From: an uncultured Thiotrichaceae bacterium
GTDB taxonomy: Bacteria > Pseudomonadota > Gammaproteobacteria > Thiotrichales > Thiotrichaceae
Reading direction: 5' to 3'
Assembly (NCBI GenBank): GCA_937925855.1
Contig: CALAMO010000023.1
Coordinates: forward strand, 1 to 64,000
DNA length: 64,000 bases
Part shown: positions 49,923 through 53,127 of the stretch, one piece after another
Layout: each line of letters starts with the position of its first letter
Numbering within the stretch: position 1 is the stretch's first letter
Notes under the pieces: model-generated
The model's database searches: none
What the model was told of the DNA's origin: nothing
What the model saw: only the letters and a program-made list of their open reading frames with translations
Translations under genes and position numbers: made by a program

Positions 49923-50141
49923 TTAAAAGCTTTTAGGAGCAGCGCTGCCATTCTTGGGTACGATGGTAGAAATAGCGCTTTTCATAATTAACTGAGAAGC
50001 CGCAGCACCGTGGTTAGAAGAGAGCATCACTGAGAACTGGTCGTAGCCGTCGATGACGCCTTCCAGCTTAATGCCATTAATCAAAAAACAGAAAACCGGT
50101 GATTTTGATTGCGTTAAATTATCTAAGAATGAATTTTGCAT
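49923..50141 (-). CDS. divergent Hfq-like (Sm-fold) protein
   Basis: The 72-residue product matches the Hfq core (FLDNLTQ, FLINGIKLEGVIDGYDQF, KSAISTIVP) but differs at key sites. Compared with E. coli Hfq, the rim arginines 16, 17 and 19 become Thr, Gln and Lys, distal Tyr25 becomes Phe, and the proximal YKHA becomes MKSA, losing His57. Lys31, Gln41 and Phe42 equivalents remain. A four-residue insertion (NHGAAA region) lengthens the loop before the last strand. No clear ribosome-binding site precedes the ATG. It lies between purA and argE, not beside miaA or hflX. It could be the genome's only Hfq or a second paralogue. Confidence 0.82.
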   Translation of the reverse strand: MQNSFLDNLTQSKSPVFCFLINGIKLEGVIDGYDQFSVMLSSNHGAAASQLIMKSAISTIVPKNGSAAPKSF

Positions 50142-50436
50142 TATGTACAGCCATATTATTAAGTGTATAGAAAGGTATTATACGCACTTCAATGACGGAA
50201 TTTAAACCGTTTGTGATAAATGGGGGAAATATACACACAACAGAATCTCAACACGCCCTGCAAAAGGGTTGGCGTACTAAAGCGAAACTAATGTTTTGAG
50301 TTTTGTCGCAGGCGTTAGCGGGCATAGGCGTTGTGGCGGCTGGTGTAATGTGACAATTGAGCTGTCATATTAGCTGATAACTGACGGTTTTAGGAAAGTG
50401 ATTTTTCTATCTAATTGAAAATATTAATGAATTTTC
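50142..50436. other. non-coding upstream region of the Hfq-like gene
   Basis: About 295 bp without a gene. It should contain the hfq-like promoter (reading left) and the upstream activator site of the sigma-54 promoter (reading right). A dyad TGACA-N7-TGTCA is present at 50351-50367. An imperfect ACGCC/GGCGT stem lies near 50262-50275. Confidence 0.5.
50351..50367. promoter_or_regulatory. dyad upstream of the sigma-54 promoter, candidate activator site
   Basis: TGACA, seven bases, TGTCA. Its centre is about 104 bp upstream of the predicted start of the small RNA, the usual distance for an enhancer-binding protein. The cognate activator is unknown. Confidence 0.4.
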
Positions 50437-50451
50437 TGGCATGCTTGTTGC
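50437..50451 (+). promoter_or_regulatory. sigma-54 (-24/-12) promoter
   Basis: TGGCAT-N5-TTGC matches the consensus TGGCAC-N5-TTGC at all but one base, with the GG and GC dinucleotides at the correct spacing. Transcription should start near 50463, reading toward the stem-loop and terminator that follow. Confidence 0.65.
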
Positions 50452-50462
50452 TTAATTAGAAA

Positions 50463-50549
50463 TATAGTGTGTGTCAGAACGGTGTAAGCCGATGCTACTT
50501 CAGGTAGCAAACTAAACCCCGGTGGTCTTCGACTCACTGGGGTTTTTTT
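50463..50549 (+). ncRNA. candidate sigma-54-dependent small RNA (about 86 nt)
   Basis: Between the -24/-12 promoter and a strong terminator there is no translatable frame with a ribosome-binding site. The predicted RNA has a 30-nt unpaired 5' part (GUGUGUGUCAGAACGG), a stem-loop TGCTAC/GTAGCA at 50493-50509, a short linker, and the terminator hairpin. It lacks the repeated GGA loops of RsmY/Z-type RNAs and the repeated CA-rich motifs of CrcZ. It lies a few hundred bases from an Hfq-like gene. Confidence 0.6.
50514..50549 (+). terminator. Rho-independent terminator of the candidate small RNA
   Basis: AAACCCCGGTG pairs with CACTGGGGTTT (one G-U pair) around a ten-base loop and is followed by seven T on the plus strand. 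On the minus strand no T-run follows, so it belongs to a plus-strand transcript and not to purA. Confidence 0.85.
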
Positions 50550-50611
50550 ATGGTTAGACGCTGCTGTTATTTTCGCCTAGGCACCAGCTGATAATGGCTG
50601 AGTGTCTTTTG

Positions 50612-53127
<2,516 letters not shown>

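Follow-up and report, generated by a model that had tools for sequence, protein, structure and literature searches.

The locus between hfq2 and purA

The window, i.e. the whole 64-kb stretch of DNA analyzed here, is part of a 3.57-Mb genome (G000) that was compared with eight congeners. The locus has three components: hfq2 (49923..50141, minus strand), purA (50612..51904, minus strand; annotated start inferred) and, in the interval between them, a predicted small RNA gene on the plus strand, which is convergent with purA. The original prediction had placed this element between an Hfq-like gene and purA, which holds in five of the six species that carry it; in the sixth, G003, hfq2 is located on another contig, thus purA is the constant neighbor.

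The gene hfq2 encodes a second, divergent Hfq (Pfam Hfq, E 5e-20) and is transcribed away from the small RNA. An orthologue is found in all nine genus members, in addition to the canonical Hfq gene elsewhere in the genome, and Hfq of this type is limited to the genus among the family genomes searched. Compared to E. coli Hfq, Hfq2 appears to lack the rim arginines, carries K-S at the K-H position of the second Sm motif and contains a short loop insertion. Hfq2 is a possible helper of the small RNA. The promoter region of hfq2 itself (window 50170-50235, minus strand) has a conserved CACAAACGGTTTAAA ahead of TATAAT, the AACGGT of which resembles the small RNA core, possibly by chance.

Within the window, the strict sigma-54 pattern YTGGCAYRNNNNYTGCW has a single match, CTGGCATGCTTGTTGCT on the plus strand (50436-50452), which contains the near-perfect -24/-12 promoter TGGCATGCTTGTTGCT (50437..50452) that had been described before; its TGGCA and TGC are invariant in six species. 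Taken alone, the promoter is not significant, because 0.18 matches to the strict pattern are expected in the window and at least one match occurred in 16 of 100 shuffles. With the GG at -25/-24, the promoter spacing puts the transcription start at 50463, exactly the position around which it had been predicted.

Predicted structure of the small RNA

The predicted small RNA is ~87 nt in length (50463..50549, plus strand), as deduced from the promoter spacing for the start and the T-run for the end. Folding of the RNA 50463-50551 gave -32.6 kcal/mol with a z-score of -3.9, and none of the shuffles folded equally well. From the 5′ end, the predicted fold begins with 17 unpaired bases, which are followed by a mini-hairpin of 4 bp, a stem-loop of 7 bp and a terminator. 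Of the architecture proposed previously, the stem-loop and the strong terminator with seven T on the same strand are both present in this fold, whereas the 30-nt single-stranded stretch is replaced by 17 free nucleotides and the weak mini-hairpin.

The invariant 5′ core GTGTGTCAGAACGG(T) (50470..50483) is a predicted seed and partly unpaired; within it, TGT-N-AGAACGGT is identical in six species. The stem-loop (50493..50509) is closed by GCTAC/GTAGC in the window and by GCCAC/GTGGC in other species, which represents one compensated change, and the fold is absent in G003. The intrinsic terminator (50514..50549) is composed of a stem (50514-50545) and a run of seven T (50543-50549). The two arms of the terminator vary in sequence among species and keep their complementarity, i.e. 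they co-vary. In G007 (L145:1693-1769), six T directly follow the first stem-loop on its 3′ side, so that the RNA could end at either of two terminators and exist in two lengths, short and long. As expected from the original prediction, the transcript is devoid of open reading frames, and no frame is conserved among species. A short conserved peptide was also rejected, since the congeners do not preserve the short GTG frame of the window (GTG-TAA in G007).

Conservation and origin of the element

A BLASTN search with the element against 57 genomes yielded, besides the element itself, chance-level matches only. The copies in congeners were thus located by synteny, in which PurA and Hfq2 were identified first, followed by the interval between them. 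The same element is found on the same strand and at the same place, the 3′ end of purA, in G003, G004, G005, G006 and G007, and is present in six of the nine genus members, G000 included. The shared layout consists of TGGCAY-N6-TGC, 22-25 nt, TGT-N-AGAACGGT, the GCCAC/GTGGC stem and the terminator. A comparison against related genomes had been suggested along with the original prediction; all five of these congeners carry the promoter, the invariant core TGTNAGAACGGT and the terminator in common with the window.

A pattern combining promoter and core has one match in each of the six genomes, in addition to one further place in the family (G026). A sequence model scores 44-57 bits in the six carriers, compared to at most about 20 bits at any other place in the family genomes and in 369 genomes from across the class. 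The match in G026 and the weak model matches in G350 and G380 are taken as chance. As this model was built from the same six copies, a leave-one-out profile served as the independent test. The profile derived from the five other copies has its best match in the window at 50437-50498 (E 5e-5), and with the transcript part alone the E-value is 1.3e-4, compared to 4.5 for the next match in the window.

The corresponding interval of G001, G002 and G008, the assemblies of which are incomplete, is shorter (~175-186 nt) and does not contain the element. In the trees of PurA and RpoN, G000 is sister to these three non-carriers, which is best explained by presence of the element in the ancestor of the genus and a single loss. 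Because promoter, core and terminator are conserved together at one place, the element stands above chance, and we regard it as very probably a real small RNA gene between hfq2 and purA. Moreover, the comparative evidence supports the sigma-54 dependence that had been predicted for it.

Upstream sites and the candidate activator

Upstream of the promoter, the dyad noted earlier near -104 was found as TGACA-N7-TGTCA (TGACAATTGAGCTGTCA, 50351-50367, plus strand, centered at -104), and another candidate activator (enhancer) site, TGTC, is located at 50304-50307 (plus strand, -159). Among all 4-mers in the 200-bp regions that precede the promoter in the six species, TGTC/GACA shows the strongest enrichment, with 30 occurrences against 7 in shuffles, and the sites cluster ~80-160 bp upstream of the small RNA. 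Four species (G003, G004, G006 and G007) possess TGTC-N7-GACA at this place. By contrast, the dyad of the window is everted and TGTC-N7-GACA is missing, although the half-sites themselves are present.

All nine genus genomes encode RpoN, with a single rpoN gene in G000. The sigma-54 AAA+ activators of G000 are three: NtrC, which adjoins glnA and ntrB, PilR, which lies between pilS and pilA, and an NtrX-like protein. The glnA gene has a canonical NtrC site, TGCACTATTTTGGTGCA, which looks different from the small RNA sites, and NtrC was therefore rejected as the activator. Upstream of pilA lie a sigma-54 promoter and a cluster of TGTC/GACA that includes TGTC-N7-GACA. The NtrX-like regulators of the genus (L159 in G005:C35, L160 in G000:C24 and those of congeners) have a degenerate AAA+ domain without GAFTGA and with an altered Walker B motif, and NtrX was rejected as a sigma-54 activator on account of this domain.

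In 13 genomes, a pattern of TGTC-N7-GACA with a sigma-54 core 70-100 bp downstream had 30 matches, compared to one for the reversed control. The matches include the pilA promoters beside pilR in G000, G001, G004, G006 and G007, the small RNA in G003, G004, G006 and G007, and a group of ORF-less, A-rich RNAs; a few matches in coding regions look like chance. PilR is the best candidate, because pilA beside pilR shares the arrangement of site and promoter with the small RNA of four congeners and G000 has few activators. PilR, rather than GlrR, LuxO or CbrB, is thus the likely activator of the small RNA, as suggested by these shared sites. A (C/G)TGTC consensus for P. aeruginosa PilR was not confirmed in the literature searched. 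GTCT elements and a NifA-like TGT element have been called hallmarks of PilR sites (PMC6058289).

A less probable alternative is that the small RNA does not belong to the pilus regulon and responds to an enhancer-binding protein other than PilR, which would be GlrR-like, NtrX or a protein that the assemblies lack. GlrR, the driver of GlmY/GlmZ, uses TGTC-N10-GACA (PMC4987338), the half-sites of which are identical to those of the small RNA, and the dyad in the window, which differs in spacing and is everted, weighs against PilR. In addition, the assembly of G005 contains the small RNA but neither pilS nor pilR, leaving NtrX as the only such activator; we infer an assembly gap, and G005 keeps rpoN and a TGTC-N7-GACA sigma-54 promoter elsewhere. 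However, the genome of the window has NtrC, PilR and NtrX only. NtrC and PilR both fall well short of the cut-offs for GlrR and LuxO, NtrX has no GAFTGA loop and an abnormal Walker B motif, and TGTC-N7-GACA recurs at pilA beside pilR in five genomes.

Predicted pairing through the invariant core

The core is an invariant, mostly unpaired block of 12-15 nt, and the rest of the small RNA is variable. Blocks of this kind typically mark a seed. The invariance of the core thus suggests a base-pairing RNA, and on balance the small RNA appears to act in this way. Alternatively, the core would be a protein site and the small RNA a protein-binding decoy, e.g. a ligand of Hfq2. The divergent hfq2 is indeed the neighbor in five of six species, and other RNAs with the same type of promoter are A-rich and CrcZ-like; nevertheless, we consider a decoy unlikely, as the small RNA contains no A-rich repeat for the Hfq distal face, compared to 2-12 in the CrcZ-like RNAs, and a long contiguous invariant stretch is in general more usual for a seed.

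For a pairing RNA, complements of the core were searched in the six genomes, where a variable gap inflates the match count; among the matches listed, the sites are at control level and the seed complement is not enriched. One site among these listed matches, GCCGTTCTGACACTC, recurs in five species inside a ~330-nt non-coding RNA with a terminator (L268:1602-1967, minus strand; L269:2233-2598; L270:1940-2305, minus strand; L271:1887-2252; L272:2226-2591, minus strand; further loci L193, L195, L196, L197 and L199). In the genus, this RNA lies near aminotransferase, YkgJ-like, LysR and, in some cases, IscR genes. It is structured, and its conservation spans at least two genera of the family, as its profile matches genomes of another genus with E-values of 1e-41 to 1e-50. 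It has no match in Rfam and is not a tmRNA by ARAGORN. The GCCGTTCTGACACTC site is invariant in ten aligned genomes and older than the small RNA.

The duplex between the core and GCCGTTCTGACACTC has an energy of -25 to -28 kcal/mol, and is the best site of the core in the ~330-nt RNA of five congeners. In each of the five species the pairing beats 60 of 60 shuffles of the core, and in G004 and G006 none of the other stretches among the 164-200 tested scores better than GCCGTTCTGACACTC, except for the antisense of the RNA itself. Moreover, the part of the small RNA that can pair with GCCGTTCTGACACTC is the very block that is conserved. One mismatch interrupts the pairing in G005 and G007, another that in G004 and G006, and no covariation was seen. 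As the consensus fold of the ~330-nt RNA places GCCGTTCTGACACTC in a helix, pairing would need strand invasion. A copy of the ~330-nt RNA was not located in the genome of the window, and inspection of the pilA leader of the window by eye revealed no complementarity to the core. Altogether, we propose GCCGTTCTGACACTC as the best candidate, albeit a tentative one, for the partner of the small RNA.

A proposed model of PilR-driven RNA control

The best explanation as a whole is a genus-specific, sigma-54-dependent, trans-acting small RNA that is driven by PilR and pairs through its core, to which we assign a probability of about 0.6. In this model, PilR of the PilS-PilR system would bind to the upstream TGTC/GACA sites and drive the small RNA together with pilA. 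The small RNA, probably helped by Hfq or Hfq2, would base-pair via the exposed GAGTGTNAGAACGGT core and invade the GCCGTTCTGACACTC stretch of the ~330-nt RNA, leading to refolding or titration, and might thus relay the state of the pilus or the surface to further genes by RNA pairing. The T-rich terminator and the exposed core are consistent with binding to Hfq or Hfq2. A chance sigma-54-like match followed by the terminator of purA is most improbable: one strict promoter match is not unusual for 64 kb and the stem does sit at the 3′ end of purA, but the T-run lies on the strand opposite purA in six of six species, a consistent A-run needed for a two-way terminator is absent, promoter and core are conserved along with the terminator, and the leave-one-out profile finds the transcript part alone, so that this reading was rejected on conservation and the strand of the T-run.

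The promoter signature of the putatively PilR-driven small RNA is also found at long, ORF-less, A-rich CrcZ-like RNAs, which have sigma-54 promoters with TGTC-N7-GACA and occur in several copies per genome. Single loci are L221 (G007:C33), L222 (G004:C16), L204 (G005:C58), L215 (G003:C55), L224 (G006:C58) and L212 (G011:C67), and multiple loci are L209/L218/L225 (G009), L210/L219 (G022) and L211/L227/L229 (G068). Many of these RNAs contain a repeated domain, CAAGCCCY...GAGGYAG...AATAACAA...CGACTCC, and their best match in Rfam is CrcZ, sub-threshold at 19-20 bits (gathering 95). Some of those in a sister genus start with GTCAGAACAG, close to the core of the small RNA, a likeness that may stem from a common origin of the 5′ ends or from a partner in common. 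The signature also reveals CrcZ-like RNAs that occur outside Pseudomonadaceae and are absent from Rfam.

A wider, rather doubtful proposal is a family-wide RNA network headed by PilR, comprising pilA, several CrcZ-like Hfq-titrating RNAs and, in this genus, the short pairing RNA beside the second Hfq and aimed at an invariant part of the undescribed ~330-nt RNA. If it existed, the pilus or surface state would be linked to global post-transcriptional control. To our knowledge, only a few families of sigma-54-dependent small RNAs are known, with one activator each (GlrR, LuxO and CbrB); a small RNA tied to PilR would connect type IV pili directly with small-RNA control. The small RNA is new and absent from Rfam, yet ordinary in kind, whereas its activator is probably new; its interest lies in this probable activator and in the putative RNA network exposed by the same promoter signature.

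Comparison with known sigma-54-dependent small RNAs and PilR promoters

The small RNA matches no Rfam family at the gathering threshold; anti-hemB and NsiR1, at 17 bits each, are far below it and were ruled out. It resembles GlmY/GlmZ in the sigma-54 promoter, the upstream TGTC/GACA half-sites and a short RNA of stem-loops plus terminator, but differs in the half-site spacing (7, compared to 10 for GlrR), in the gene neighbors and in the absence of an Rfam match; moreover, none of the activators examined in G000 is GlrR-like over the cut-off. With CrcZ/CrcY/CrcX it shares a sigma-54 promoter served by a response-regulator activator, which for the Crc RNAs is CbrB; CbrAB is described as unique to Pseudomonadaceae (PMC8871633). 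In contrast to CrcZ, the small RNA is 87 nt long, and A-rich AANAANAA repeats are absent from 50463-50551. These differences agree with the original view that it is neither GlmY/GlmZ nor CrcZ.

The Qrr small RNAs, activated by LuxO, are sigma-54-dependent, about 100 nt in length, and have one terminator and a conserved exposed core. The small RNA is similar in its predicted sigma-54 dependence, size, single terminator and conserved exposed core, but it has a different core sequence and no Rfam match, and no LuxO was found over the cut-off. The literature searched contained no small RNA activated by PilR. Compared to the PilR-dependent pilA promoters, the small RNA has the same arrangement of TGTC-N7-GACA and sigma-54 promoter in G003, G004, G006 and G007, with everted half-sites in the window, and differs in that the transcript here is a small RNA.
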